Shown here in pieces: positions 44,987-59,154 of a stretch of DNA of 59,154 bases. The stretch covers positions 1 through 59,154 of the forward strand of contig JAAEZA010000023.1 of the NCBI GenBank assembly GCA_018223125.1, in the 5' to 3' direction. The position numbers were made by a program, and so were the translations under genes. Source of the DNA: Paracoccaceae bacterium. Its GTDB lineage: Bacteria; Pseudomonadota; Alphaproteobacteria; Rhodobacterales; Rhodobacteraceae. The notes below the pieces were generated by a model, which was not told the origin of the DNA, did not search any database, and saw only the letters and a list, made by a program, of their open reading frames with translations. Position 1 is the first letter of the stretch; each line of letters starts with the position of its first letter.

Positions 44987-45063
44987 GGCCCCGTGGCTCA
45001 ACTGGATAGAGCAGCCCCCTCCTAAGGGGCAGGTTGCAGGTTCGAATCCTGCCGGGGTCGCCA
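44987..45063 (+). tRNA. tRNA-Arg (anticodon CCT)
   Basis: A complete 77-base tRNA including an encoded CCA. The acceptor stem GGCCCCG pairs with CGGGGTC (one G-U), the D stem is GCTC/GAGC, the anticodon stem GCCCC/GGGGC holds the loop CTCCTAA with anticodon CCT, and the T arm is GCAGG-TTCGAAT-CCTGC. It reads the rare AGG codon. Its 3' 47 bases are duplicated at 59106-59152, so the gene is the integration site of a mobile element, whose left end supplies the present 3' part. Confidence 0.96.
45017..45063 (+). repeat. attL: 47-bp core repeat
   Basis: Begins CCCTCCTAAGG in the anticodon loop and ends with the CCA of tRNA-Arg. It is identical to 59106-59152. The left copy completes the functional tRNA gene. 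Confidence 0.95.
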
Positions 45064-45139
45064 AAACTGCCTGAAAAATATAGCTTATTTACAGGACGTT
45101 GTGCGGAAGCGTGCAAAAAGTCCCGTGAGCTTTCAGCCC

Positions 45140-45164
45140 GAAATCGGCTGAAACGGCCGATTTC
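45140..45164. other. 9-bp perfect inverted repeat, possible oriT or regulatory hairpin
   Basis: GAAATCGGC (45140-45148) and GCCGATTTC (45156-45164) flank a 7-base loop, about 55 bp upstream of the first gene of the rep-mobC-mobA operon. Inverted repeats beside mob genes often belong to oriT, but no known nick-site consensus is recognisable. It could equally be a transcriptional hairpin. Confidence 0.5.
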
Positions 45165-45166
45165 TC

Positions 45167-45185
45167 GTACAAAACCTGTACAAAA
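45167..45185. repeat. Left-end GTACAAAA pair, candidate integrase arm sites
   Basis: GTACAAAA occurs at 45167-45174 and 45178-45185, an 11-bp spacing. Similar GTACAAAC/GTACAGG copies with the same 11-bp spacing lie near the right end (59027, 59038) plus one at 59053. This is the pattern of arm-type sites for lambda-like integrases. Confidence 0.55.
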
Positions 45186-45218
45186 TTCGCACGTTTGTGC
45201 GTATTTCGAGGGTCAATC

Positions 45219-46076
45219 ATGAGCCGCCATAGCTTTGATCCCGAAATCGCTGGACGTGTGGGTCTCAATGCAGCGGTGATTTTTCAGAACATCACCTTCT
45301 GGATCGAGAAGAACCAAGCCAACCGTCGTAACCTTCGCGACGGGCGGTATTGGACCTACAATTCCATCTCGGCCTTTGGCGAGTTGTTCCCCTATCTGAG
45401 CGAAAAGCAGATCCGAACAGCGCTCGAAAAGCTGGTCAGCGCAGAGCTGATCATCAAGGGCAATTTCAGCGATGATCGCTATGACCGGACCTGTTGGTAT
45501 GCCTTGGGCAACTCCATTTGCCCAAATGGGCAAATCGATCCGACCGAAAGGGAAAATGATGCATTTGCCCCTGCGGGCAAGCCATCTGCCCCAGAGGGCA
45601 AATCCTATAAGAACAGATATAAACCATATCAAAAACCAAATCCTTCGCACGCGAAGGCGGCGGTGGAGGATGAGATTTCAGAAAAGATTTTGTCCGCCTA
45701 TCCGGAGGATCGCATTCGCGGCAAGGCGGTTTGTATCTCGCAAATCCGCCAAGCGCTGGCCGACGGAGTGGATGCCAAAGACCTTGAGGAAGCCGTGCGG
45801 GCCTATGCATCCGAAAGTGAAGGCTTCACCCGCTCCAAGGTGTGCTTCTCCGACAATTGGTTCACCTCTGGTCGTTGGCTGAAATACCTTCACGACGTTG
45901 AGGAGGCACGAGAAGCAGGCAAAGCCAAAGAGGCCGAATTGCTGAAAGGTTTGGCCGACTGGGTCACGGACAAGCACCCCCTTTGCCGCCACATAACACC
46001 CGGCCAAGTGACCGCGTTGCTGGCCGCAAACCTGGTCAGCCCTGCTGAAATCGAAGCGGCGGGGCTCAGAGCATGA
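45219..46076 (+). CDS. Replication-protein-like winged-helix protein
   Basis: 285 residues from ATG 45219. The N-terminal part (FQNITFWIEKNQANRRNLRD, YWTYNSISAFGELFPYLSEK, IRTALEKLVSAELIIKGNF) is a winged-helix domain like those in phage and plasmid replication proteins. A linker rich in Pro/Lys/Gly follows, and the C-terminal half is helical. A role in replication of the excised circle is likely but not shown. It leads the operon; its stop overlaps the mobC start (ATGA). It could instead be a regulator of the mob genes. Confidence 0.65.
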   Translation: MSRHSFDPEIAGRVGLNAAVIFQNITFWIEKNQANRRNLRDGRYWTYNSISAFGELFPYLSEKQIRTALEKLVSAELIIKGNFSDDRYDRTCWYALGNSICPNGQIDPTERENDAFAPAGKPSAPEGKSYKNRYKPYQKPNPSHAKAAVEDEISEKILSAYPEDRIRGKAVCISQIRQALADGVDAKDLEEAVRAYASESEGFTRSKVCFSDNWFTSGRWLKYLHDVEEAREAGKAKEAELLKGLADWVTDKHPLCRHITPGQVTALLAANLVSPAEIEAAGLRA

Positions 46077-46543
46077 GTGCGACAGCCCCCCACAAAGAGC
46101 AGAGAGCAAGGTTACCCACCGATTACATCGGCGGGACTTGTGAGGGGCGGCAAGCCTCCCCTTCAAACCCCAACCAGACGCGCGCAAGCGGCGTCAAAGA
46201 GGGCCTTTCCGAGAGTGTGATCTTTCGATGCACACCGTCGGAAAAGGCTGCGCTTGTGGCCAAGGCACACGCCGCTGGCCTGCCCAACGCCACGTTGATG
46301 CGCGAGGCCTTGGGGCTGACCGAGGCACGTCGGCGCAAGCCCGTCCCGCGTGTTGATCCGAAGCTGACCTTTGCGATTGCCCGTGTCGGCGGTAACCTCA
46401 ATCAGCTGTCACGCTGGATCAACGGCGCGGTCAAATCCGGCCGTGCGAGCCAGATCGATGCGCTCAAGGTCGCTGCTCAGCTGGTGATCATCGAACGGCA
46501 GATGGCGCAGATCGTGGCGGTACACACAGGCGGTGGCGAATGA
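46073..46543 (+). CDS. mobC: Mobilization accessory protein MobC/MbeC-like
   Basis: 156 residues. After a charged N terminus it shows a ribbon-helix-helix-like segment (VIFRCTPSEKAALVAKAHAAG) and the hallmark of MobC proteins, FAIARVGGNLNQLSRWINGAV. MobC proteins bind oriT and help the relaxase open the strands. Its stop overlaps the relaxase start (ATGA). Confidence 0.88.
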   Translation: MSATAPHKEQRARLPTDYIGGTCEGRQASPSNPNQTRASGVKEGLSESVIFRCTPSEKAALVAKAHAAGLPNATLMREALGLTEARRRKPVPRVDPKLTFAIARVGGNLNQLSRWINGAVKSGRASQIDALKVAAQLVIIERQMAQIVAVHTGGGE

Positions 46544-48096
46544 TCATCTCGTTATTTTCCACCGGCGCAGGCGGCGGTGCTGCACCCGTCGACTACCTGA
46601 TCGCGCGCGAAGTTCTGGCCTATGATGAGAACCGCAATCTGATCCGCGATGACAACGGTCAGCCGCAGACCAAGATCCGCGACCCGCTGCCAGAGGTGCT
46701 GCATGGCAATCCAGACCAGACCCGTGACCTGATCGATGCGAGCCCCAACAAATGGAGCTACACGGCAGGCGTGATCAGCTTTGCCGAGAGCGACGATCCC
46801 AGTCCCGCCGCCCAGCAAGAGGCCATTGAGCTATTTGAGGCTCTGGCCTTTGCCGGGCTGGACAGGGATCAATACGACTGCCTTTGGGTGCGCCACTCGC
46901 ATGAGGGCAACGTCGAGCTGCACTTCTGCACGCCACGCCTTGAGCTCAGCACCGGCAAGGCGCTGAACATCGCACCGCCAAGGCATGAGAACGCCTTTGC
47001 GAGCCTGCGCGATCTGTTGAACCAAACGCACGGTTGGGCAGACCCTTTGGACCCAGAACGCGCCCGTGAAGTGAGGGCAACGATTGAAGCGCAGACGCGC
47101 GCGCAAGGTCGCGAAGCGCTGCACGATTGGATCCTCGATCAGATCAGCGTCGGCAGCATCACCGACCGCGCCAGCATGATCGACGTTTTGGCCGATGCGG
47201 GCTTCGAGATCCCCCGAGCCAGCAAAAATTACATCACCGCCCAAGACCCGGACACCGGCGAGCGCTGGCGTTTGAAAGGAGAGATTTTCCATGACGACTG
47301 GCAAGCCGAACCGCCTCGCCGAGAAATTGAACGCGGACTTGGAGGCGATCCGCAGCGACCACGCCGCCTTGATGGCATCTCAGCTGGAGAGCTTCAGGAG
47401 CGATTTCAGCAGCATTGCGACCAGCGCGCTGCATACAATCGAGACCGATATCAGGTTCTTTCTCAGCGACAGCAAGAGCGAGTTGGAGAGGCGGAGCGAG
47501 ACGATCCGCCGCTGGCTGACGATCTCTCCTTGGATGATCGTGGCGATGGTCTCATCCTGGATCGTGACGGTGCTGATCGCGAGTTGGGTTTGGACAGGTT
47601 TGATCACGCGTTCGGAGATGGCGAGTCTGGGCCTGACACGGATCGAACAGTCCGGGCAGACATGGGTGACGCTGGACCCCGACCGGACCGAATTGAAGAC
47701 CTGCACCATGGCCGGGACGCCGGTCATCTGTATCGAGATCAAGGAGCCTTAGATGACACATATCCTGACAGCATTGGAACGCGAATTGCTCGCATCCGTC
47801 GAGCGGTTGGTGACGGCCTGCGAGAGCTCAGCCAAGGAATTGCACGCCTTGGAGAAACGCTCGACCGGCAGGATCGAAAGCAAGGTGAATGGCTTGGCGC
47901 ATTGCGTGGCGCTATTGATGAAATCACATCTCACGTCCGTCACCACATTGGCCGACTTGCTGCGCGAGGAGCAGAATTACGAGACGCTTCAGGCGAGATT
48001 GGAGACCAGTTGGAAGTTAGCGAAAGACGCCGAGAGGCGGCTGAACGAGAGTTAGCTGAGCGGGAGGTCGAAATGGACCAAGGTATGACGCACTAG
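46540..48096 (+). CDS. mobA: Relaxase MobA/MbeA-like (MOB-HEN type)
   Basis: 518 residues. Nicks oriT to start conjugal transfer. The N-terminal relaxase domain (about 1-230) has the opening MIISLFSTGAGGGAAPVDYL with a Tyr at residue 19, and the metal-site-like WVRHSHEGNVELHFCTPRLE (residues about 116-135), which follows the H-E-N style of ColE1-type MOBP relaxases rather than the HxH triad. The C-terminal half is Asp/Arg/Glu-rich and coiled-coil-like. That unusual composition is explained by two other genes that overlap it in another frame. It overlaps mobC by four bases. Confidence 0.88.
   Translation: MIISLFSTGAGGGAAPVDYLIAREVLAYDENRNLIRDDNGQPQTKIRDPLPEVLHGNPDQTRDLIDASPNKWSYTAGVISFAESDDPSPAAQQEAIELFEALAFAGLDRDQYDCLWVRHSHEGNVELHFCTPRLELSTGKALNIAPPRHENAFASLRDLLNQTHGWADPLDPERAREVRATIEAQTRAQGREALHDWILDQISVGSITDRASMIDVLADAGFEIPRASKNYITAQDPDTGERWRLKGEIFHDDWQAEPPRREIERGLGGDPQRPRRLDGISAGELQERFQQHCDQRAAYNRDRYQVLSQRQQERVGEAERDDPPLADDLSLDDRGDGLILDRDGADRELGLDRFDHAFGDGESGPDTDRTVRADMGDAGPRPDRIEDLHHGRDAGHLYRDQGALDDTYPDSIGTRIARIRRAVGDGLRELSQGIARLGETLDRQDRKQGEWLGALRGAIDEITSHVRHHIGRLAARGAELRDASGEIGDQLEVSERRREAAERELAEREVEMDQGMTH
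47291..47752 (+). CDS. mobB: MbeB/MobB-like membrane protein nested inside the relaxase gene
   Basis: 153 residues in the +1 frame relative to mobA and wholly inside it. A strong Shine-Dalgarno (AAAGGAGAG) lies just upstream of ATG 47291. The N-terminal half is helical/coiled coil (MTTGKPNRLAEKLNADLEAI), and one membrane helix follows at about 78-105 (WMIVAMVSSWIVTVLIASWV). ColE1 encodes MbeB and MbeD nested in mbeA in the same way. MbeB proteins help anchor the relaxosome. Confidence 0.8.
   Translation: MTTGKPNRLAEKLNADLEAIRSDHAALMASQLESFRSDFSSIATSALHTIETDIRFFLSDSKSELERRSETIRRWLTISPWMIVAMVSSWIVTVLIASWVWTGLITRSEMASLGLTRIEQSGQTWVTLDPDRTELKTCTMAGTPVICIEIKEP
47753..48055 (+). CDS. mobD: MbeD/MobD-like coiled-coil protein nested inside the relaxase gene
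   Basis: 100 residues starting directly after the mobB stop (TAG-ATG) in the same frame, with AAGGAG before it. The sequence (MTHILTALERELLASVERLV...) is a long amphipathic helix like ColE1 MbeD, a DNA-entry exclusion/mobilization factor. It lies entirely inside mobA, whose last 41 bases run beyond it. Function is by analogy of position and architecture. Confidence 0.72.
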   Translation: MTHILTALERELLASVERLVTACESSAKELHALEKRSTGRIESKVNGLAHCVALLMKSHLTSVTTLADLLREEQNYETLQARLETSWKLAKDAERRLNES

Positions 48097-48189
48097 AGTG
48101 CCTACACGCTTTAATTAAATCTAAAGCTTTATCCTGTAGTTGACCCGGCGAACAGGACCTGGTAACGCTTGGATCAAAAGGAGAACATT

Positions 48190-49455
48190 ATGCTTGACCG
48201 GATGTTGGATAGTGGAGCCTGGGTTCAGGCAAAGCGCGAAGGTTTAGGGCTGACACAAAAGGCTTTTGCGGAACTCCTAGGGATGCCCGAAACTGGCGAA
48301 CGTACTGTGCGTGGTTGGGAGCTGGGAGAACACTTCCCAACACCGGCAAAGAGGGCGCAGATCGAGAATTTGCCAGATACGGCGCTCTTGCGTAGCCCTT
48401 ACGCAAGCAATCCCGAACTGGCAGAGTTTTCTTTCATCGATTTGTTCGCAGGCATTGGCGGGATCCGCTATCCCTTTCAAAAGATTGGCGGACACTGCGT
48501 TTTCACATCCGAGTGGGACAAGTTCTCCAAGAAAACATATGCCGCCAATTTTGGCGAAGTGCCCCATGGCGATATCACGAAAATTGCAGCTCATGATATC
48601 CCCAAACATGATGTCCTGTTGGCAGGCTTTCCTTGCCAAGCGTTTTCACAGGCCGGGTTGAAGCAGGGTTTCAACGATACACGGGGGACAATGTTCTTCG
48701 AGATCCAGCGGATCCTTGCCCATCATCGACCAAAGGCGTTTCTGCTGGAAAATGTGAAGCAGCTTAAAGGGCACGACAAAGGGCGAACGCTAGAAACCAT
48801 TCTGGCAATCCTCGAGGGGCGCAAGGTTCCAGATATTCCGGTTTCTGTTCCAATGTCCGAGGAGGCTCGGGCATCTCTTGGTGCCAAGTTGAATTATCGG
48901 GTCGGGTTCCGCGTTCTAAAAGCAGCGAATTTTGGTGTCCCGCAGAATCGGGAGCGTGTTTATATCATCGGGTTTGACCGTGATCAGGTCCGCGCCGCTG
49001 ACGATGCTGATATCTGTTCAATGATCCTTGATCGCTTGAGCGAAAGAAAAGCAACAACACGTGTTGGCGATATTCTCGAAGACAACGCTCGGGTCGATCC
49101 AAAGTATACGATCTCGGACAAGTTGTTGGCGGGGCATGTAAGGCGGCTTGCAGGCCACAAACAGAAGGGCAACGGCTTTGGTTTCAGCGTGTTTACGCCT
49201 GACAGCCCGTACACAAACACAATAAGTGCGCGCTATTACAAGGATGGTAGCGAAATACTCATTGACCAGAGCGACATAGGTGAGAATCCACGTAAACTCA
49301 CCCCTAAGGAATGCGCGCGTCTTCAAGGCTTCCCGGACGAGTTCAACGTCGATGCGGTTTCCGATTGCCAAAACTACCGGCAGTTCGGAAATTCGGTCTC
49401 TGTACCCGTGATCGAGGCTATCGCAGCCGAGATGAAACCCTACATATCAGGCTAG
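48190..49455 (+). CDS. C5-cytosine DNA methyltransferase with N-terminal helix-turn-helix
   Basis: 421 residues. ATG 48190 has AAAGGAGAAC upstream. Motif I FIDLFAGIGG is at about 82-91, motif IV GFPCQAFS with the catalytic Cys149, motif VI LLENV at 185-189, motif VIII PQNRERVYIIG and motif X FGNSVSVPVIEAI follow. The first 65 residues form a predicted HTH (LTQKAFAELLGMPETGERTV), as in methylases that repress their own promoter. It protects the host against the downstream McrB/LlaJI nuclease and is followed three bases later by vsr. Confidence 0.93.
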   Translation: MLDRMLDSGAWVQAKREGLGLTQKAFAELLGMPETGERTVRGWELGEHFPTPAKRAQIENLPDTALLRSPYASNPELAEFSFIDLFAGIGGIRYPFQKIGGHCVFTSEWDKFSKKTYAANFGEVPHGDITKIAAHDIPKHDVLLAGFPCQAFSQAGLKQGFNDTRGTMFFEIQRILAHHRPKAFLLENVKQLKGHDKGRTLETILAILEGRKVPDIPVSVPMSEEARASLGAKLNYRVGFRVLKAANFGVPQNRERVYIIGFDRDQVRAADDADICSMILDRLSERKATTRVGDILEDNARVDPKYTISDKLLAGHVRRLAGHKQKGNGFGFSVFTPDSPYTNTISARYYKDGSEILIDQSDIGENPRKLTPKECARLQGFPDEFNVDAVSDCQNYRQFGNSVSVPVIEAIAAEMKPYISG

Positions 49456-49458
49456 TCC

Positions 49459-49932
49459 ATGGCGGACATCGTTCCCCCGGAAAAGCGCAGTTCCATGATG
49501 TCGGGTATTCGGGGGAAAGACACCAAGCCGGAGATCATCGTGCGTCGCCTGCTTCACCGGCTTGGCTACCGGTTCCGCCTTCATCGAAAAGACCTGCCAG
49601 GGCGTCCGGATATCGTGCTGCCAAAGTGGCGCACTGTGATCTTCGTGAACGGCTGCTATTGGCACGGCCATGAAGACTGTCATCTGTTCCGTCCGCCCAA
49701 AACTCGGACCGAATTCTGGAAAAACAAGATCGAAGGCAATCAGGTCCGTGACCGGCGCAACTACGCCGCGCTGGAGAATGCCGGATGGAAGGTCTTGGTC
49801 ATCTGATGGAAGGTCTTGGTCATCTGGGAGTGTGCGGTATCCAAAAAGTTGAGCCTAACCGACGAGCAGCTGGAAGTCGCTATTGCTGCTGCGTTGGCGT
49901 CATCAGAAAGCCTAATTGATATCAGGGGGTAA
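49459..49932 (+). pseudogene. vsr: Very-short-patch repair endonuclease Vsr, disrupted by a 21-bp tandem duplication
   Basis: The gene codes for Vsr, which nicks beside T:G mismatches arising by deamination of 5-methylcytosine. The intact portion shows the expected PEKRSSMMSGIRGKDTKPE, the PGRPDIVLPKWRTVIFVNGC active-site stretch (catalytic Asp) and WHGHEDC. At 49785-49826 a 21-bp unit is present twice in tandem. The junction makes the codon that should be Trp (IWEC in the family) into TGA at 49804-49806, so translation ends after 115 residues. The frame after the second copy continues in phase (WECAVSKKLSLTDEQLEVAI) to TAA at 49932. Removing one unit would restore a normal protein of about 150 residues. 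The truncated protein lacks the C-terminal strand and helix and may be inactive. Confidence 0.92.
49785..49826 (+). repeat. 21-bp tandem duplication inside vsr
   Basis: Copies at 49785-49805 and 49806-49826 are identical (ATGGAAGGTC...). The length is a multiple of three, yet the junction creates TGA. It looks like a slippage event of recent date, since the two units have not diverged. Confidence 0.97.
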
Positions 49933-49998
49933 TTGCCGGTTGGTGAAAGGCAGTTCCAAACTGTAAGTTGTTGATGATTCTTACTTTAAGGGTGTTCA

Positions 49999-52056
49999 AT
50001 GGCCGATCCTCTATTTCCGACCGATTCCAAAGCTGCGTTATACACCGTTTGTTTTTTTCTCGCGCAGTCAGGCGAACCCCACACTGATCTCGGGTACGAA
50101 ACCCAAACTGCTGCGTTTGATGCCGTTGGCGCAAAGTTCGGCGTGCCAAGAAATACCGTGAAGAACGAGCGGGATGCCTTTGATAAGTTTACCGATAGTG
50201 ACCGAAGCGGCTGGAACAAAGAGCTAGCCCCACGGCTCAAGCCAACTTTCGATATATATGCCAGTACTTCTAGGGAAGATTTGCGCGAGTTGTCCTTGGC
50301 GATCATGAGTTCGAATTGGGAAAAACTCGACAAAGAAGCGGACGGCGAAATGGATGGAAAATCTGGAAGCGTAGGAACTGGTTCGAGCGCGCCAGCACCG
50401 CAGATATTGCCAGATCTTAAAGAATGCCAGCGATTAAGCAAAGAACGCGCTGCCAAAATCAAGATTGATCAGCTTTATGCTCCTTCGCCTGAAGTTTGGA
50501 AGCAGATTCTGTCGCTATACAGGGCTGAAATGGCTACCGACAACGCCATAGTCGTTGGCACGTCTTCAATGACTATTGAGACCGATAAAGGAAAAGTACT
50601 TACAATCAGCTCTCAAGAATTTCCCAGATGTTGGGCCGTAAGGCCCTACGTCGTGGGCATTTTGTTGTATGAAGAAAAAGTCAATGAACTAGCTAAGGAA
50701 TTGGGCTTTGCAACTCGTAGTTCTGGTCGCGGCAAGGAAGAAATTTTTAAGAGGCTACCGGCATCGAATGCTCCAAAGCCTAAGGGAGGCGCAAAGCTAG
50801 AAGTTGCACCTGCAGACATGGCCAACATAATCGACGCCGTAGAAAACAAACTTAACCTAGACAAAGAGAGCCAAGCTAGGTTCATCGAGTTTCTAACAGA
50901 TGGTGAATGGGGGGGCATATCAAAAACCCTTGAACGCACTGATTGGACTACATCTGCGATCGTCGGTGTCGGCGGCTGGCTGGCAAACGCATCAACTAGA
51001 CGCGGCGAGCTTTCAATTGCATTGGCGAAGTCTGACGCCTTCGAAGAACTCACGCTAATCTCTGGATCGAATGGTCAATCGCCAACGCCACACGCGAGTG
51101 CTGTTTCCCTTGCTGCGCTCAAGGGCGGCGAGAACGTGATCTTCTATGGCGCGCCAGGAACGGGAAAGTCCGACCGCGTTGAGAAAAAAATCAAGGCAGC
51201 AGGCAAGAGACCTTTCAGGACAGTCTTTCACCCTGATCTCCAGAACAGCGATTTTTTTGGATGCCTCAAGCCGCAAATGGATGGCAAGAAGGTTCGGTAC
51301 GGATTTTCACCGGGACCATTCATGAAAGCGCTTGCCGAGGCCTACAAGGAACCCGCCGAGCCGGTCTTCCTCGTGATCGAGGAGCTGAACCGTGCGGCTG
51401 CAGCTGCGGTCTTTGGCGATCTGTTTCTCCTGCTCGACCGCGACGAAGACGGGAGGGGCGAATACGATGTTAGCTTTCCTTCACCCGAAAGCGAACAGTG
51501 GTTTGAGAAAGAGACGGGAGCGCCCTACAAAGCCCTGCAGTTGCCATCCAACTTGTCTATCTACGCCACGATGAACAGCGCGGATCAGGGCGTGTATCCA
51601 ATAGACACAGCCTTCAGGAGGCGGTGGCGGCAGGAATACCTACCGCTCGACTATAAATCAGGCCCCGACGGCGACGTTGCTTATGTCGACGCTACAGGAA
51701 AAACACACTCGCTTGCATGGCGCGAATTCGTCAAGTTGTTGAACGGCCACCTCACCAGCAGCCAGACAATGGAGATAGCCGAAGACCGTCTTCTGGGGCA
51801 GTGGTTCGTCAAGAAGAATGAGCTGGACGGCAATAGAATCCCCGAGAAGGTACTGCTCTATCTTTGGGACGATTTGTTGCGGCATGAAGGGCGTGATTTG
51901 ATCTTCGATACAAGCCGCATCAAGACTTACGGCAGCCTTGCACTCGAAACGGAAAAAACAGGCAGGATATTGTCGGATGCTTTTCTTGCGGTACTGAACG
52001 CGGCCTCGGAGATCGAAACTGCGCAGCCGGAAGAGTCTGCCGAAGATGAGAACTAA
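49999..52056 (+). CDS. McrB-like AAA+ restriction motor (LlaJI R1-like)
   Basis: 685 residues. The AAA+ domain carries Walker A GAPGTGKS at 384-391, Walker B FLVIEELNRA at 457-466 and the McrB hallmark TMNSADQGVYPIDTAFRRRW around 524-543. McrB-type proteins use GTP to power DNA translocation for a partner nuclease. The N-terminal 370 residues are unfamiliar and presumably recognise DNA; they include an HTH-like start (TQTAAFDAVGAKFGVPRNTV). It overlaps the next gene by 11 bases. Together with the upstream methyltransferase this resembles the type II LlaJI systems, which use McrBC-like subunits. Confidence 0.85.
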   Translation: MADPLFPTDSKAALYTVCFFLAQSGEPHTDLGYETQTAAFDAVGAKFGVPRNTVKNERDAFDKFTDSDRSGWNKELAPRLKPTFDIYASTSREDLRELSLAIMSSNWEKLDKEADGEMDGKSGSVGTGSSAPAPQILPDLKECQRLSKERAAKIKIDQLYAPSPEVWKQILSLYRAEMATDNAIVVGTSSMTIETDKGKVLTISSQEFPRCWAVRPYVVGILLYEEKVNELAKELGFATRSSGRGKEEIFKRLPASNAPKPKGGAKLEVAPADMANIIDAVENKLNLDKESQARFIEFLTDGEWGGISKTLERTDWTTSAIVGVGGWLANASTRRGELSIALAKSDAFEELTLISGSNGQSPTPHASAVSLAALKGGENVIFYGAPGTGKSDRVEKKIKAAGKRPFRTVFHPDLQNSDFFGCLKPQMDGKKVRYGFSPGPFMKALAEAYKEPAEPVFLVIEELNRAAAAAVFGDLFLLLDRDEDGRGEYDVSFPSPESEQWFEKETGAPYKALQLPSNLSIYATMNSADQGVYPIDTAFRRRWRQEYLPLDYKSGPDGDVAYVDATGKTHSLAWREFVKLLNGHLTSSQTMEIAEDRLLGQWFVKKNELDGNRIPEKVLLYLWDDLLRHEGRDLIFDTSRIKTYGSLALETEKTGRILSDAFLAVLNAASEIETAQPEESAEDEN

Positions 52057-53353
52057 CCTACCAATATTTTTTTCTGATCGGGACCCCGTTTCCCATCTCG
52101 ATCGGCACGCTGATGATGTTGTTCAGGCAATGCGAAAATGGGGTATCGGTCGAGTTGACGAGCGCGATCGAGTAAATTTTTGCGGCCTTATTCATCACCC
52201 TGAAGAGGGAGCTGTTGTGTTTCTCCCGAGAGAAGCAAAAACCGGCGACCCGACCTTTGATCTGCAAACCGCATCCTTGGCTATGAAAGCGTTGGCAAGG
52301 TTTGGCGCAGAAACGTCCAAGCGGAACTTCGTGAACGACGGAGAATCTGGAAATCCGGGTGTTCTATCGGTTATCAAACGGCTTTCCGACGACTTCAGAG
52401 ACCGTGGTCTTTTCTCAGAGCGTGTCCGGCATCGAACCCGGAACTCTGGAAAGCCGCACTGGACAAGGACGGTTACCCGCGAGATCGCAATGCCGGGCTA
52501 CAAAGGGCAGCCCGTTTTCACTGATATCCGCACCAGTCGTACTGCGAGTAGTTCTGACGCTCTCCTAGCCCAAATCCAGGCTGCTGTTATTCGTGAAATC
52601 CATGGTGCCCATGCGTGGTGGCTTTCTGGTACGTCAAGCAGGCGCCAAGAGCTGCTTTCCTGCTTGCGCCCGCCGTTTTCCCGTACAACGTGGGCCAGCA
52701 AACTTGATGCACTATTGCCTTCATTGTACTCGGCAAGATCGGTGTTCCTTGCTGAGTATCTCAGATACTACCTCAGAGACACGCGCAAGTCGTCGGATGG
52801 TGCCTTTGTTTTCGGGGTCGAGGACTTTCACACGGTCTGGGAGACAATTCTGCGTGAAACCATCAAACGTTCCCCATGCGACACCATGCGGAACTGGAAC
52901 AGTGAACTGCCAAGGCCCTTCTATTTGCACCAAGGCACGCTAATCCAAGAATCACGCAACAGGGGAATGCAAACGGACATCATTCTGGAACACGCGACAT
53001 CATTTACCATCGTTGACGCCAAATACTACGCTGCCAAGAATGCAGGGTCGGCTCCTGGATGGCCTGACATTGCCAAGCAGATTTTTTATGAAAAAGCCTT
53101 GAGAGAAATTGTAGACCAAAACTCTGAATTGCCCGCTGTGATCCACAACGTATTCGCGTTCCCGGCGGCGACCAATCGCGGCCCTCTTACGAAAGTGGAA
53201 ATCCGGCATACGAACGGCAAACCAGTGAGCTCGGCCTTTCCGCCAATCGTTTGTTCGTACGTTTCAGTTCGCGAAGCGCTGTACCACTATGTGTCGCGCT
53301 CCCAAGGGATTGATCTGGAACACAACGATCCCGCAGGTGCTCTAAGTGGGTAG
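52046..53353 (+). CDS. LlaJI/McrC-like restriction endonuclease
   Basis: 435 residues. The nuclease domain lies in the C-terminal half, with FGVEDFHTVWE (about 256-266), the metal-binding Asp311 in MQTDIIL and the DAK (324-326) of a PD-(D/E)xK core. This is the pattern of LlaJI-type/McrC-like nucleases that work with an McrB motor. It overlaps the motor gene by 11 bases and ends against a convergent receiver gene, with a 12-base overlap of the 3' ends. Target sequence is unknown. Confidence 0.82.
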   Translation: MRTNLPIFFSDRDPVSHLDRHADDVVQAMRKWGIGRVDERDRVNFCGLIHHPEEGAVVFLPREAKTGDPTFDLQTASLAMKALARFGAETSKRNFVNDGESGNPGVLSVIKRLSDDFRDRGLFSERVRHRTRNSGKPHWTRTVTREIAMPGYKGQPVFTDIRTSRTASSSDALLAQIQAAVIREIHGAHAWWLSGTSSRRQELLSCLRPPFSRTTWASKLDALLPSLYSARSVFLAEYLRYYLRDTRKSSDGAFVFGVEDFHTVWETILRETIKRSPCDTMRNWNSELPRPFYLHQGTLIQESRNRGMQTDIILEHATSFTIVDAKYYAAKNAGSAPGWPDIAKQIFYEKALREIVDQNSELPAVIHNVFAFPAATNRGPLTKVEIRHTNGKPVSSAFPPIVCSYVSVREALYHYVSRSQGIDLEHNDPAGALSG

Positions 53354-54709
53354 CGTCACGATTCCAGGGCGAGAGATATACCGGGCATATTCTTGTGTAA
53401 GTTCAGATATCAGCTCTTCTCTAAAACGATAGGCGACTTTCCAATCCTTAGTGCTTGGCCTCGGGACACTGATTGAGAGGTTCCTGAAAACGCTCACCTT
53501 ACCAGCATTCTTGTCAGCCGAAAATTTAAGGACTGGGCTCCTCCATTCCATGCCCGACTTTACCTTTCGGTTTTTGTGTAATTGCGGTCTGCCATTGACG
53601 TTTGATCCGTCAGGCAAGCCGAAAGGCCATTCCACAGCTAGAAGATATAGCAATGGTCCAGGGTTGGGTTGCGCGTTGTCGCAACTCGCGCCTATCTGCA
53701 CAAGGCGAAGTTCGCAATCCGCCCATTCAGCCTCACTTACTTGAAAAATTTCGTCCCTGAGTTGGGATACGGTCACGCCCCATTTTTCATTGAGTACCGC
53801 ATCACTTATTTCGAAAGGGAATTCGACAACCGCACCCAGTTCTGTTGGCGCGATAGGTGTGCTCCGTGCAGTTCGGGCGAAGGATAAATGGATCGCGCTG
53901 TTTACGCTCGCTTGGACCTCCACTGTTGGGGCTGCTTGCGGATCTACAAGCGACGTTTTCCAGTCAAATGTATCACCGCTATCAGGATCATGTTCAGCAA
54001 TGCGGTCAGAAAGGATTGGGACCAAGACGCGGTTAATGGATTCCCTCGGGTTTTCTGTTGCACGATCCTTACCCGCACCGGCTTGGGACAACTTGTATAG
54101 TACTTTACCAAGCTCATCACTGAACTCGTCTGAGGCTCTATTCTCTAGTGGAACTAGGTCAATCATGGAGCGGAGGACTGCATCTGCGGCTGCCGCAACA
54201 TCCGCTTCCCATGTGAGCAATGCCCTTAATTGCGGGTTTTCGGATACTTTCTCAAGTATATCAGTTCGTAGCTTTTCAGGGTCTAGAACATCGCCATTGG
54301 CAATGTTTATGTAATCGCCTTTTCTGAGCTCAGTAAAAAAAACAGGAAGATGCTTGGCATCTTCTCCAGTCAGGCGATCAAATAAATACTTCTTTAGCTC
54401 ATCGACCTCCGGATCATCAGCCCAAAGTACCAAACCGTAAGGGCCGCTGTCGGGACAAATCAGCTTTTGGATGATTTCCAGCAGGACATTGAAAGCTACT
54501 TTGTTGTCAGTCGCCATTGTCGCGCCAGTAGCAAGGTTCTTATCAAGAAACAGAATCCTAGTGCCAGGTAGTGGCCCCCAGTTTGCAACTTCCTCGTCAG
54601 TATAAAGCTTCGAGTGACAATCCAAACGTAGAAAGTCCAAACTCTCTTTGATACCTAAAAGGTGCTGAGGTTTATCATCAACAATAACAAAACGGGAATT
54701 TATTAGCAT
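53342..54709 (-). CDS. Receiver-like protein with large C-terminal domain of unknown function
   Basis: 455 residues. The N-terminal 130 residues resemble a response-regulator receiver: the acidic pair in FVIVDDK (Asp11, Asp12), the phosphoacceptor-like Asp56 in ILFLDKNLA and a Lys at 130. The switch Ser/Thr of typical receivers seems to be Trp-Ala in VLWADDP, so signalling may be atypical. The remaining 320 residues (including LTWEADVAAAADAVLRSMID and a beta-rich end) match no domain I know. It starts two bases after the stop of the double-GHKL kinase and is the last gene of the xre operon. It could be the effector or a phosphorelay partner. Confidence 0.65.
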   Translation of the reverse strand: MLINSRFVIVDDKPQHLLGIKESLDFLRLDCHSKLYTDEEVANWGPLPGTRILFLDKNLATGATMATDNKVAFNVLLEIIQKLICPDSGPYGLVLWADDPEVDELKKYLFDRLTGEDAKHLPVFFTELRKGDYINIANGDVLDPEKLRTDILEKVSENPQLRALLTWEADVAAAADAVLRSMIDLVPLENRASDEFSDELGKVLYKLSQAGAGKDRATENPRESINRVLVPILSDRIAEHDPDSGDTFDWKTSLVDPQAAPTVEVQASVNSAIHLSFARTARSTPIAPTELGAVVEFPFEISDAVLNEKWGVTVSQLRDEIFQVSEAEWADCELRLVQIGASCDNAQPNPGPLLYLLAVEWPFGLPDGSNVNGRPQLHKNRKVKSGMEWRSPVLKFSADKNAGKVSVFRNLSISVPRPSTKDWKVAYRFREELISELTQEYARYISRPGIVTLPT

Positions 54710-54711
54710 CC

Positions 54712-56868
54712 TTAGCCCTCTAAACTGGCAAACCGCAAAGCTATAACCGCACCATCATATTGAGTCGGCACATCGGTCTCCGACACATCTGGAAAGGTCA
54801 GCTCGCCATCGTTGAGCTCCATAACCATATTTGCGTAGTACAATCCCATGCCCATTCCGTCAGGCCGCCTTGTGTAGAATGGACGGACTAGATCCATAGG
54901 TGAATCCTCAAAGCCCGGTCCGGTGTCAGCGATGACAATTGCAGGGCCACCCTCAAAATCAGGTTCAATATTCAGATAAAGCGCCCGCCCGGATCCATCT
55001 TCTTCATCGGGCCAACGTGTCCTCATCCAGAAGATTGCGTTGTCGATAACATTGGTGATGGCCCCTAGCGTGAGTCCAAACGAACAGGAGACACGCACAC
55101 TCGGCGCGTCATCTTCAACCGCCGGGCATTCAAGGCGTACTTTGTGGTGCCTGAAGCGAATACGGTTTAGATCGCGCGCTCGCCTGACAACAGATTTGAG
55201 ATCAACGAGTGATCTATCTTTTTTTCTCAAGAGATCCGAGAAACCGTCTAGGAGGCGCATCATTTCGTTGACTTGGTCTGCTACGTCCTCAACTTCAGGC
55301 TTGCCTTCAAGGTTCCGATAGAGAGACCGCACGCCTTGTTCTATTTCATGAAATACTACGGCGAGACTTGTTCCTGAGATGCCGGTCGAAAGAAGCCGCT
55401 CCTTCATAGAAGTGTATTCATGTTCGATGCGATCCAATAATGGATCGATCTGGCCAGAGAGATTATTTTTTTGACCAATCAGCCTTAGCTTTCCAACAGG
55501 TTCCAGAATGCTTTTGGTCTCTGGATCTTGAACGTCTCCCAAAAGTTCACCGATTGCCTTACGGTCAACCTCACGCTCTCGTTGCAACGGTTCGATAGCC
55601 CCAATGACCAGTCTCTGAAGCCGTCCATAGGCTGCATTTTCTATGAAACCTTCACGGTTGGATTTTTCGACCAGTGCATGGCTTTCATCCTGCCCTAGTG
55701 AAACATGTCCTACGACAATGTTTCGGCTGAGGCCTTTGGCTGGATTGTTGACACGCTTGAGATCGAGGCCCAGCCAATCATTGTTTCGCTCACCATAGTC
55801 ATAGACCCTGATGCCATCGCGGTAGACACGGATACCTCCGTTCTCATCAAGAAATCCTTTGACCAGCTGTGCTTCACCCATCTTTTTGGCGAGCTTCGGA
55901 GTAAGGTTGTAGACAAAAAGTGTTCCCGAAATCGGACCAATACCCTCCAACATTTCGGCATCGGCGATCACTTTTCGTAATGTGCCGGTCTGTGCCTTTC
56001 CGCTGAAAAGCGGGTCATCATCATCGACCTCTGCCGGCGGTACAAGAAGCCGTGCGTTCTCTTCGACAACAGTTCTCTTTTCCCGCGAAACGCCAGGTAT
56101 CCCTCTGAATTCATAAGTGTAACTGAAAACTTTACCATCAAACTGAAAGCTATACTTCCAAGGTGCTCTCTTTAATAGTTCAGCTGGATCAGGCAGGTTT
56201 TCAATCCATTGGGGGAAGTCTGGGACTTCTAGAACAGCTTCAAAGTCATCCCTCGTTTTTGACCCAAACGGAGAAGAAATCGAAGTGATCTGACGATATA
56301 GGCGGCGAATTTCGCCACGAGTCCAATGCAGATCACGCAGCTCCTCAATACTGATACTTGTTCCGGTGGATCCGTCAGAAAACACCACTGGATCGCGCAC
56401 TTCGACATCAACATTCGCTTCGTTAAGAAACTCATGCTTGATCATGGCATTCCAATCAATACTGACAACTACCTCTTGCTCACCTGCAGCTCTTGTAACC
56501 ATGGTGATTTTGTTGCCGAGTTTATGGACGGAAAGCCGCCCAAGCCCCTTGGACCCGAGCGGAAGGCGTCCTTTGCCTGTACGTTGTTTTTTCTGAAGCT
56601 GCTTTTCCTTGTGATCATGGGCTATAACCAACCATATTTTTCGGACGGTTTCCGGCGACATCCCAACACCGTCATCTCTTATTGAGATGCTCGGCGATTT
56701 GGACCCAATACCCTCGATCGCGACCCTCACGCATGAGGCATCAGCGTCATAGCCGTTTTTTACTAATTCAAAAACAGCAAGTCTGGGCGTGCCAATCAAT
56801 TGATCGCCTAAATGCTGCAACAAACGTGCTCGCGGTTTGAATACCTCTTTGCTGTCTATGCTATTCAA
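54712..56868 (-). CDS. Histidine-kinase-like protein with two GHKL ATPase modules
   Basis: 718 residues. The N-terminal module is Hsp90/MutL/MORC-like: E34LVKN38GYDAD, DDGVGM at 65-70 and the GSKGLGRLS loop at 105-113. A long middle region follows. From about 500 there is a histidine-kinase core: FHEIEQG with His507 as candidate phosphoacceptor, N-box TNVIDNAIFW (Asn610), G1 ADTGPGFED and G2 GMGMGLYYAN. Having both an Hsp90-type and a kinase-type ATPase in one chain is unusual. No membrane segment is seen, so it would be a cytosolic sensor. It lies between a small membrane protein and a receiver protein in one operon. Confidence 0.8.
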   Translation of the reverse strand: MNSIDSKEVFKPRARLLQHLGDQLIGTPRLAVFELVKNGYDADASCVRVAIEGIGSKSPSISIRDDGVGMSPETVRKIWLVIAHDHKEKQLQKKQRTGKGRLPLGSKGLGRLSVHKLGNKITMVTRAAGEQEVVVSIDWNAMIKHEFLNEANVDVEVRDPVVFSDGSTGTSISIEELRDLHWTRGEIRRLYRQITSISSPFGSKTRDDFEAVLEVPDFPQWIENLPDPAELLKRAPWKYSFQFDGKVFSYTYEFRGIPGVSREKRTVVEENARLLVPPAEVDDDDPLFSGKAQTGTLRKVIADAEMLEGIGPISGTLFVYNLTPKLAKKMGEAQLVKGFLDENGGIRVYRDGIRVYDYGERNNDWLGLDLKRVNNPAKGLSRNIVVGHVSLGQDESHALVEKSNREGFIENAAYGRLQRLVIGAIEPLQREREVDRKAIGELLGDVQDPETKSILEPVGKLRLIGQKNNLSGQIDPLLDRIEHEYTSMKERLLSTGISGTSLAVVFHEIEQGVRSLYRNLEGKPEVEDVADQVNEMMRLLDGFSDLLRKKDRSLVDLKSVVRRARDLNRIRFRHHKVRLECPAVEDDAPSVRVSCSFGLTLGAITNVIDNAIFWMRTRWPDEEDGSGRALYLNIEPDFEGGPAIVIADTGPGFEDSPMDLVRPFYTRRPDGMGMGLYYANMVMELNDGELTFPDVSETDVPTQYDGAVIALRFASLEG

Positions 56869-56908
56869 AGGCCTTGCCCCACGTTAGAATAAAACTCTGT
56901 AGAAGTGA

Positions 56909-57205
56909 TCATTCACGAACCAGCCGATCAAGTCTCCGAATTGAAAAATAGAGCATCAAAACTGCCCCAGTGAGAAACGGAATAAAGATACCAGTAGTTA
57001 CAATTGCTATAATCTGAAGTGCCGTGGCCCAACTGAAATCAGTTGGATAATCAAAAAAGCTAAACCTTACAAAACCAGCTAGATAGCAGGCGCATACGAA
57101 AACATAGATAGTAAACAATGGTTCAAGAGGTTGGAAGACGGTACGCCTAGTCCTTTCCAAAACAGCTTGTCGCATCTGTTGCCATTTTTTTCCAGATTCT
57201 AGCAT
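56909..57205 (-). CDS. Small membrane protein, two helices
   Basis: 98 residues. A basic amphipathic N terminus (KWQQMRQAVLERTRRTVF) is followed by helices around 28-48 (PLFTIYVFVCACYLAGFVRF) and 60-88 (LQIIAIVTTGIFIPFLTGAV). I do not recognise a family. It starts three bases after the xre stop and precedes the kinase by 40 bases, so it is co-transcribed with them. In a defence context such a protein could be the membrane-acting effector or the anchor; that is speculation. Confidence 0.65.
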   Translation of the reverse strand: MLESGKKWQQMRQAVLERTRRTVFQPLEPLFTIYVFVCACYLAGFVRFSFFDYPTDFSWATALQIIAIVTTGIFIPFLTGAVLMLYFSIRRLDRLVRE

Positions 57206-57208
57206 GAT

Positions 57209-57631
57209 TTACTCCCTGACCAATTCAATCCACGTGTGCACATCGTCGTCACTGACTTCACGGCCTTCGACGTGTGACTGATACCAGCGAGCCACGATTG
57301 CTCCGCGTTTCTCGCTCTTAATTTTGATTTTTTCCTCAGTGAGGTGTTGATCGAGCGAAATCTCGATCCTCTTTAGCGCCTCGAAGTCATGCGCCGCTCT
57401 GACAGACTTTGTGCCCAACAGGATCCATGCAGCGTCTACATCGAATTTGTCGGCAATCGCGACCAAGGCTTCAACGGGAAGGCCACGCTGGCCTTTTTCG
57501 TAGCTGTGATAGGCGCGGTGTGAGACGCCGATCGCGTCCGCCATAGCGGTTTGCGTCAAGCCGACTTCGTTGCGCGCGATCGCAAGACGCGCACCCATTG
57601 CCGAGAAGACAGCCTTCAAATCCCGCGCCAT
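57209..57631 (-). CDS. Xre-family transcriptional regulator
   Basis: 140 residues with a Cro/C1-type helix-turn-helix near residues 10-70 (ARLAIARNEVGLTQTAMADA, IGVSHRAYHSYEKGQRGLPV). The C-terminal part is helical. It is divergent from the excisionase/integrase genes and heads the operon with the membrane protein, the kinase and the receiver protein. Two TGAC-based inverted repeats in the divergent region are likely operators. It probably controls both the operon and the recombination genes. Confidence 0.85.
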   Translation of the reverse strand: MARDLKAVFSAMGARLAIARNEVGLTQTAMADAIGVSHRAYHSYEKGQRGLPVEALVAIADKFDVDAAWILLGTKSVRAAHDFEALKRIEISLDQHLTEEKIKIKSEKRGAIVARWYQSHVEGREVSDDDVHTWIELVRE

Positions 57632-57643
57632 GCAAGGTTCCCA

Positions 57644-57719
57644 TTGACGTGACGGTCAAATTGCGCGAAACTGCACAAAATGACATAAAATTCCAATTAA
57701 TCCCATCTGACCACGTCAG
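57644..57719. promoter_or_regulatory. Two TGAC-based inverted repeats in the xre-xis divergent region
   Basis: TTGAC-N6-GTCAA (57644-57659) and CTGAC-N3-GTCAG (57707-57719) lie in the 153-base region between the divergent xre and excisionase genes. The first is 13 bases from the xre start. They are plausible Xre operators placed to control both directions. Confidence 0.55.
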
Positions 57720-57784
57720 AAGGTGCAGAACAAGCGATTCCATGCGTGTCGCCGATTACACTTAAGCGGACAAGGACGACTGAA

Positions 57785-58132
57785 ATGGCAGAGACCAACT
57801 ATTCAGACAGCTCTCAGATCCTGGGACTTGGGAAAACGCCCGCCCAATGGGTCGAAGTTATGGCCGGGATGGGGATCGATATTTCGGAACGCACCTTGCG
57901 CGAACGCGCCAATGAAACGGGTGCATTTTATAGGCTTGGGCGAACCATGCTGATCACACCCGCGCAGATTGATACGATTTTTGAAGGAGGCCAGTCATGC
58001 CGCTCCAAATTTACAAGAGGGGCCGTGTCTACTGGGCCAAGGGGTGGATTGAATACAACGGCAGGCCAATCGCCGGCCCATACCGGCGAAGCACTAAGGC
58101 ATCTTCAGAAGAGGGCGCACGGGACTGGATAA
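57785..58132 (+). CDS. Excisionase-like DNA-binding protein
   Basis: 115 residues from ATG 57785. The first 70 residues form a winged-helix/excisionase-like domain (LGKTPAQWVEVMAGMGIDIS, ERTLRERANETGAFYRLGRT, MLITPAQIDTIFEGG). The last 46 residues overlap the start of the integrase gene in another frame (136 bases). Integrases of this type commonly follow such a small protein, which directs excision. Its position beside int supports the call. Confidence 0.72.
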   Translation: MAETNYSDSSQILGLGKTPAQWVEVMAGMGIDISERTLRERANETGAFYRLGRTMLITPAQIDTIFEGGQSCRSKFTRGAVSTGPRGGLNTTAGQSPAHTGEALRHLQKRAHGTG

Positions 58133-59079
58133 ACCATGAGACCGAACGTCAGATCCGTCGCTATGTCGTGGGCGATGAACCGAGCAAGACGTTCTCTGAT
58201 GCAATCATGCTCTACAATGCGTCCCCGAAGGCGGCGAAGCAGTTGATCCCTATTGTCGAGGCAATCGGCGATCTATCGCTCAGCGCGATTTCTGGTGCGC
58301 TACTGAAGAGCCTTGGGCCGAAGCTGAAGCCCAAAGCATCAACCGACACCTGGTGGCGTGAAATCGTGACGCCCGCGAGTGCGGTGATCAACAACGCGCA
58401 CGAGCTGGAAGGCACGCCGCTCATCCGCGTGAAGCCCTACGACAAGTTCGAGCGGATCGCGCAGGACAAGCGGCGCGGGAAGCTCAGCCGCGTCGAGCGC
58501 ACGCCCGCTGACAAGGAATGGATCGAGGCATTTTGCCGTGCTGCCGATCCATACAATGCCGCGCTGGTTCGTTTCATGTTCGAGACGGCAGCGCGAATTG
58601 ATCAGGCCGTATCATTGGAGCCGGATGACCTTCGGCCGCACGAGAACAAAGTCCGCGTGAAAGCGCAGAAGGGACATCCGGAAAGTTGGATCACTGTCTC
58701 ACCTCAGATGATGGACGAGCTTCTCGCGTTGCCGCCCAAACGCCCCAAGAACCGCAAGACCGGCAAGCTGATGAAAGCACGCATCTTCGGCTATGGCAGC
58801 TCAACAGGTTACAACACGCGTTGGAAGACGATCTGCAAGCGCGCGGGCATCCCGTATCTGTCAGCGCATCCAGCTGGACGGCATGGGTTTTTCACTGAGT
58901 TAGTCGTCCGTCAGGGCGTCGATCCCGTCACGGCAGCCAAGGCTGGACGCTGGTCAGACCCCAATTTGCCCATGCGCATCTATGCCCACGCAGAGACCGA
59001 TGAGGCCGACATCAGGGCCCGTTTTCGTACAAACCACGTACAGGAAGACGCTGTACAAACAACCAACAGTAAGAAATAA
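57997..59079 (+). CDS. int: Tyrosine recombinase (integrase) of the element
   Basis: 360 residues; ATG 57997 follows a GGAGG site. An N-terminal arm/core-binding part (about 1-165) precedes the catalytic domain. Catalytic residues: Arg200 in FETAARIDQ, the HxxR box H291PAGR295, Trp319 in GRWSD and the nucleophile Tyr329 in MRIYAHAE. It would integrate the circle into the tRNA-Arg 3' end and, with the excisionase, release it. It lies 26 bases from attR. On circularisation its transcription would run across attP into the rep-mob operon. Confidence 0.93.
   Translation: MPLQIYKRGRVYWAKGWIEYNGRPIAGPYRRSTKASSEEGARDWINHETERQIRRYVVGDEPSKTFSDAIMLYNASPKAAKQLIPIVEAIGDLSLSAISGALLKSLGPKLKPKASTDTWWREIVTPASAVINNAHELEGTPLIRVKPYDKFERIAQDKRRGKLSRVERTPADKEWIEAFCRAADPYNAALVRFMFETAARIDQAVSLEPDDLRPHENKVRVKAQKGHPESWITVSPQMMDELLALPPKRPKNRKTGKLMKARIFGYGSSTGYNTRWKTICKRAGIPYLSAHPAGRHGFFTELVVRQGVDPVTAAKAGRWSDPNLPMRIYAHAETDEADIRARFRTNHVQEDAVQTTNSKK
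59027..59060. repeat. Right-end GTACAAAC repeats, candidate integrase arm sites
   Basis: GTACAAAC at 59027-59034 and 59053-59060, with GTACAGGA at 59038, overlap the integrase 3' end. The 11-bp spacing between 59027 and 59038 equals that of the two left-end copies. Confidence 0.55.
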
Positions 59080-59095
59080 CAAAAGGAATAGCGCC

Positions 59096-59154
59096 ATGAA
59101 CGCATCCCTCCTAAGGGGCAGGTTGCAGGTTCGAATCCTGCCGGGGTCGCCATG
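59096..59154 (+). other. Ribosome site and ATG reading through attR (ORF completed only in the circle)
   Basis: ATG 59096 is preceded by AAAAGGAATAGCGCC. The frame (MNASLLRGRLQVRILPGSP) passes through the 47-bp core without a stop. In the integrated form it runs into chromosomal DNA beyond the window. In the excised circle, 59152 joins 45064 and the frame continues to TGA at 45220-45222, giving 71 residues and an ATGA overlap with the rep-like gene. It may be a leader peptide rather than a functional protein. Confidence 0.5.
59106..59152 (+). repeat. attR: 47-bp core repeat
   Basis: Identical to 45017-45063, the 3' part of tRNA-Arg(CCT) including CCA. It lacks the 5' half of the tRNA and is the right boundary of the element. 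Confidence 0.95.

Follow-up and report, generated by a model that had tools for sequence, protein, structure and literature searches.

What do the genes around a kinase with two GHKL ATPase domains in a mobile element of a Paracoccaceae bacterium do, and which of them belong together? The window analyzed here is the whole stretch of 59,154 nucleotides (nt) of contig JAAEZA010000023.1 (GCA_018223125.1). A preliminary description had proposed a new four-gene system within it, consisting of an Xre-family regulator, a membrane protein, the kinase and a receiver protein. Comparison with 87 other loci revealed that kinase and receiver are a mobile, conserved unit whose near-constant third partner is a C5-cytosine DNA methyltransferase (C5-MTase), a gene missed by that description. 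Judged by gene content, the composition is thus kinase, receiver and C5-MTase instead of Xre regulator, membrane protein, kinase and receiver. We tentatively read the mobile cytosolic phosphorelay together with the C5-MTase as a DNA-defence unit, a reading to which we give somewhat less than an even chance. The genes in question are as follows:

54712-56868, minus strand: kinase, 718 aa, TTG start
53342-54709, minus strand: receiver protein, 455 aa
48169-49455, plus strand: C5-cytosine DNA methyltransferase (PF00145, 1.4e-94)
57209-57631, minus strand: Xre-family regulator, 140 aa (PF01381, 1.4e-12)
56909-57205, minus strand: protein with two hydrophobic segments, 98 aa (hydropathy scan)

Relatives were collected with an alignment of six kinases, scanning one genome per species. 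The best 80 of 352 relatives were taken, and the counted set comprises 88 loci (the window and L010-L096), including the near-duplicates L011/L012, L061/L062 and L017/window. The window's family was found in Azotobacter, Rhizobium, Agrobacterium and Chlorobiaceae. The receiver gene lies directly downstream of the kinase gene in 87 of the 88 loci, the exception being L058, and the expected recurrence of the pair elsewhere was thereby confirmed. A C5-MTase was detected in 80 loci and a Vsr endonuclease in 57, using search profiles built from five and four of the 88 loci, respectively. Since the loci had been picked by kinase similarity, the MTase count is not built into the set. Among the eight loci without a C5-MTase, three are short (L010, L038, L072) and three stop within approximately 1 kb past the receiver gene (L027, L052, L096). 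As a yardstick, a PF00145 search of 39 host genomes (of 40 loci named), with same-frame pieces merged by hand, yielded 83 C5-MTase genes in ~182 Mb, corresponding to an expectation of ~0.01 per 22 kb. In contrast to this expectation, 38 of the 39 loci whose host genome could be searched carry a C5-MTase (exception L027), and in 14 of these 39 genomes the one at the locus is the sole C5-MTase found. The same kinase-receiver pair was present in 11 of 26 loci from viral contigs (L110-L120), ten of them with an MTase.

The four minus-strand genes do follow each other with the tight gaps initially described (3, 40, and 2 bases), and by this spacing, the sole basis for it, the Xre and 98-aa genes would be co-transcribed with the kinase-receiver pair. 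The same tight arrangement is seen in L017, the near-identical element, where tblastn matched the Xre regulator with 89% and the 98-aa protein with 76% identity. No other of the 87 loci gave a match to either protein, which rules them out as core parts; they look like accessories of the window's element lying outside the conserved unit. The hydrophobic segments of the proposed two-helix membrane protein were recovered, but not its membership in the system, and the membrane-directed outcome built on it lacks comparative support. A four-gene system with such an outcome is consequently highly improbable, and the claim of novelty falls as well because this kind of system was predicted in 2021 (PMC8011034).

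The kinase itself combines a MORC/MutL-like GHKL ATPase (Pfam PF13589 HATPase_c_3, 3.9e-19), a middle region, a phosphotransfer motif VFHE with His507 (55348-55350) and a C-terminal HATPase_c domain (PF02518, 1.6e-14). It thereby joins an Hsp90/MORC-type ATPase to a histidine-kinase core, as had been supposed from the letters. A kinase profile compared with PDB found histidine kinases (best 2.6e-7) and MutL (7.7e-4). In NCBIfam, the C-terminus matches histidine kinases, and the best match of the N-terminus is the BbrUII/HgiDII restriction ATPase NF050001 (1.8e-24), where its score of 86 bits stays far below the cut-off of 550. Residues were counted in the window and 61 of the 80 kinases, a subset of our choosing. 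All 62 match both HATPase_c_3 and HATPase_c and keep His507, 61 keep Glu508, and none of the ATP-site residues that were checked varies in either GHKL domain. At L046, a second, diverged double-GHKL protein is encoded on the opposite strand of the same locus (L046:3430-5565, minus strand).

Residue counts for the receiver were based on the window and 76 of 80 (L045, L050, and L072 are partial, and L058 has none). The window protein keeps Asp11, Asp12, Asp56 (54542-54544) and Lys130; Asp56 and Asp11 are conserved in 77/77 receivers, Asp12 and Lys130 in 76/77. The altered switch residue pointed out earlier is real, with Ala97 (54419-54421) in place of Thr or Ser, but it is no general trait of the family: position 97 is Thr in 54, Ser in 14 and Ala in nine receivers, namely those of the window, L017-L023, and L025, and these eight rank among the window's nearest relatives. 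The C-terminal part, referred to below as the output domain, contains a Cys343-Asp344 pair (53678-53683) in 77/77 receivers, together with Arg447 (76/77) and Gly449 (75/77). The whole receiver protein has no family match in Pfam, PADLOC, NCBIfam or PHROGs, and a profile of the C-terminal ~300 residues, built from 51 of the 77 receivers, found no PDB chain with an E-value of 10 or less, in agreement with the 320-residue domain of unknown fold noted at the outset. The receiver profile matched eight PDB chains up to E = 1 (best 0.042), all of them response regulators and kinase chains aligned at query positions 1-67. In the locus pairs L070/L078 and L079/L081, receivers diverge faster than kinases (49-58% versus 88-89% identity).

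Its complete kinase and receiver residues would also allow the pair to be an everyday two-component system that regulates host genes and is simply carried along by defence islands. We consider this very unlikely, as neither a membrane sensor nor a known DNA-binding output was found and the tie to the C5-MTase (80/88 loci) is far above the yardstick. Its occurrence is sporadic: a tblastn search with the receiver gave matches in seven plasmids, one phage-labelled contig and two of 292 genomes of the order, including the window's own, a distribution unlike that of a housekeeping system and in keeping with the initial proposal. Five of the seven plasmid matches were inspected, and in all five an annotated C5-MTase and Vsr lie close by.

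How tightly the partners are bound was addressed by distance correlations over 77 loci, after dropping the eight MTase-less loci, the duplicate L012 and the broken L045 and L050. Kinase and receiver distances correlate with 0.94, and kinase and Vsr distances with 0.47 (55 loci). Neither these values nor the kinase-MTase correlation given below were reached in 2000 shuffles, which ignore shared ancestry. L028 and L036 carry kinases that are 83% identical beside MTases that are 22% identical. These comparisons indicate that the kinase-receiver pair is a locked unit, accompanied by a C5-MTase but by no particular one. Regardless of its sequence type, the partner belongs to the C5-MTases, as L028/L036 illustrate, and this would also suit an upkeep of 5-methylcytosine (5mC). 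In that case, mismatches or lesions derived from 5mC, through deamination or through cleavage once methylation is lost, would be signalled by the MutL-like kinase, and the receiver, acting alongside Vsr, would direct repair or restraint. Vsr repairs 5mC deamination, and its presence in 57 of the 88 loci as well as MutL among the PDB matches of the kinase profile fit this idea. However, Vsr was not found in 31/88 loci, some of them short, and the receiver protein shows no repair domain, so that we regard upkeep as distinctly unlikely.

The restriction enzymes behave differently from the C5-MTase. A typed restriction partner occurs in at least 28 of the 88 loci, and in a few loci no restriction enzyme that could be typed was seen. 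A fixed restriction partner was ruled out, since the commonest companion family occurs in only 9/88 loci. Companion genes of the loci are mobile-element genes (integrases, TniQ, TrwC, and conjugation genes). From the locus comparison, the restriction enzymes are evidently swapped while the kinase-receiver pair stays. A phosphorelay usually is a regulator, and both the frequency of typed partners and the persistence of the pair while they change would be consistent with a control module. Such a module would regulate expression or activity of the adjoining restriction-modification (R-M) genes, by MTase level or licensing of the restriction enzyme, with no attack function of its own. Regulation of neighbouring R-M genes was also what PMC8011034 suggested for the HEF_HK/Response_reg_2 system. 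Against it, no DNA-binding family was found in the output domain by Pfam, NCBIfam and PDB profile searches, and there are loci such as L077 with no restriction enzyme found near the pair. In this smallest locus seen (L077:8784-17828), from Salinivibrio siamensis, kinase, receiver and C5-MTase are the only open reading frames (ORFs) of at least 110 aa between YicC and LacI-family/6PGD genes. A control module is a possibility that we hold to be less than likely.

Loci of this composition could be taken further: C5-MTase, MORC-like kinase and receiver might constitute a complete restriction system that lacks a restriction enzyme of the classical type, the ATPase reading self versus non-self and the phosphorelay triggering a Cys-Asp effector. 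Very different C5-MTases beside closely related pairs would be explained if the presence of 5mC were read and not one sequence. Conversely, the MTases at L077 and L061/L062 are 514-647 aa long and may hold an extra domain, which slightly lowers the odds of a reading free of restriction enzymes. We consider this stronger version rather unlikely.

Our preferred reading, the DNA-defence unit of phosphorelay and C5-MTase, can be put in a series of proposed steps. A GHKL domain acts as an ATP-driven clamp and a histidine kinase passes phosphate to its receiver; together with the domain order, this behaviour is the basis for the proposed sensing, dimer closure, phosphotransfer and output release. 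The N-terminal MORC/MutL-like ATPase would read DNA that is foreign, unmethylated or damaged, and its ATP-driven dimer closure would switch on the histidine-kinase core. His507 would then be phosphorylated and pass its phosphate to Asp56 of the receiver, whereupon the phospho-receiver may release the Cys-Asp output domain to act on DNA or on the cell. Methylation by the C5-MTase would mark self DNA and keep the sensor off, a role suggested because of the MTase linkage. The restriction enzyme, where present, would be a second, exchangeable arm. What these steps build on is, at the level of sequence, a locked pair with intact phosphotransfer residues, a near-constant C5-MTase and exchanged restriction enzymes; from it we infer a DNA signal, an actual transfer of phosphate, an active output domain and a role in phage defence.

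Several observations weigh against the defence unit. The switch residue of the window receiver is replaced by Ala97, and the output domain has neither a known catalytic motif nor a typed relative in sequence searches (Pfam, PADLOC, NCBIfam, PHROGs, and PDB profiles). L058 holds a kinase without a receiver, and in the DNA covered no MTase was found there, at L066 (both with longer flanks and thus real exceptions) or at the viral-contig locus L113, likewise a real exception. Kinase and MTase distances correlate with only 0.32 (77 loci), which speaks against close co-diversification. Furthermore, because at least 28/88 loci have a typed restriction partner, an attack function of its own is not needed at those loci.

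Kinase-receiver signaling in phage defence is known from Detocs, which differs in its sensor and adds a third receiver protein as well as a nucleosidase effector; of the latter two, none was seen at the window locus. The PADLOC matches of the window proteins include no Detocs-named model, although the coverage of Detocs by PADLOC was not checked. The closest likeness is to the two-component system HEF_HK (PF19191)/Response_reg_2 (PF19192), which PMC8011034 predicted beside R-M genes with no function reported, and the Vsr list of that paper includes Azotobacter, Chlorobium, Rhizobium, and Agrobacterium. Both share a kinase built of HATPase_c_3, a histidine-phosphotransfer region and HATPase_c with an adjoining receiver gene, a neighbourhood of type II R-M genes, C5-MTase and Vsr, and an invariant Cys-Asp pair in the C-terminal part of the receivers. 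HEF_HK frames, in contrast, span 980-1185 codons compared with 718 aa for the window kinase. At E up to 0.1, PF19192 matched 0/77 receivers and PF19191 0/62 kinases of the window's family, whereas 12/12 Response_reg_2 proteins matched PF19192 as control. HEF_HK occurs in 13/13 Response_reg_2 genomes and in 0/6 genomes with the window's family (its own and five others). Response_reg_2 was present in 3/190 genomes of the class and 10/398 of the phylum; it matched in 0/39 host genomes, a run in which the controls were silent too, although the same search matched in the class and phylum scans. By profile comparison with 12 of 13 Response_reg_2 proteins (L105 left out), the receiver domains of both families are related (probability 93.7, E 2e-7, 81 columns), and the C-terminal match is weak (probability 37 and 48, E 4e-4 and 2e-4), with global runs aligning nothing useful. 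Weak models as the only cause of the Pfam misses were ruled out, as both models work in their own family; the kinship is distant by profile. We therefore class the window's family as a variant of the system kind predicted in 2021, set apart by the Pfam models, and the 2021 orthologue group may hold members of it.

More remote relatives comprise double-GHKL proteins in viral contigs (L121-L134), followed by other receiver-like ORFs, several of ~220-240 aa; in 13 such loci inspected, a similar CD motif was found in L133 alone. These distant pairs and the known families may all branch from one larger, apparently unsorted set. The N-terminal GHKL ATPase characteristic of paraMORC proteins is present in the window kinase by Pfam. 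In the excerpt of PMC2292703, paraMORC ATPases of R-M systems have an S5 domain after this ATPase, and cytosine methylases as well as Vsr occur nearby. According to that excerpt, the N-terminal ATPase and the R-M neighbourhood with cytosine methylases and Vsr are shared with the paraMORC/BbrUII-HgiDII proteins, whereas a nuclease or TIR domain stands there in place of the C-terminal histidine-kinase core. The anti-phage protein GHKL-Shedu VcSduA likewise has an N-terminal GHKL ATPase, but, in the excerpt of PMC12137116, with a fused PD-(D/E)xK nuclease instead of a kinase core and separate receiver. A legend on predicted, unvalidated systems in the excerpt of PMC13092281 (DefensePredictor) has HATPase and REC and may or may not concern the window's family. 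Literature searches found no phage-defence test of the window's kinase-receiver family and no experiment on kinase-to-receiver phosphotransfer in it.

The remaining features concern the integrative element, which carries an R-M module beside the four genes, so that the location initially described is confirmed:

45017-59152: integrative element, ~14.1 kb, with the R-M module and all four genes, flanked on each side by an exact direct repeat of 47 nt
46540-48096: relaxase-like ORF, named by inspection
49459-49806, plus strand: Vsr endonuclease ORF, 115 aa (PF03852, 1.4e-30)
49999-52056, plus strand: McrB-like AAA protein, restriction subunit (PF07728 AAA_5, 7.9e-12; PADLOC REase_II, 2.3e-44)
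52046-53353, plus strand: LlaJI-type restriction subunit (PF09563, 1.9e-23)
57997-59079: integrase-like ORF, named by inspection

The repeat copies lie at 45017-45063, which is the 3' part of tRNA-Arg(CCT), and at 59106-59152, two bases short of the contig end. The gene of the LlaJI-type subunit converges with the receiver gene in a 12-base overlap, and the C5-MTase shows a weak HTH_3 match under the Pfam cut-off. Twelve bases before the Xre start, an inverted repeat TTGAC-N6-GTCAA (57644-57659) was noticed by eye, with a similar one at the same place in L017; it is possibly an operator of the Xre regulator. The Vsr ORF of the window carries a 21-nt perfect tandem duplication (49784-49825) at its 3' end and stops in the second copy, giving 115 aa, while the frame of the L017 relative stays open for 151 aa. 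L017 matches the McrB-like protein only over residues 372-685, though its kinase and receiver are 95-96% identical to those of the window; the positions concerned are 49999-51111 in the window and 14825-15766 in L017. The N-terminal part of this protein, which probably gives specificity, has thus been exchanged.

The 2021 report linked such pairs to R-M systems, and this link is narrowed here to a C5-MTase of changing type and not a given R-M system. In at least one locus (L077), the three genes stand by themselves in that no restriction enzyme was found next to them. Should the phosphorelay indeed control an attack on DNA, bacteria would sense DNA methylation through a signaling pathway, with a MORC-like ATPase as the sensor, and this would offer a possible bridge to eukaryotic MORC proteins.

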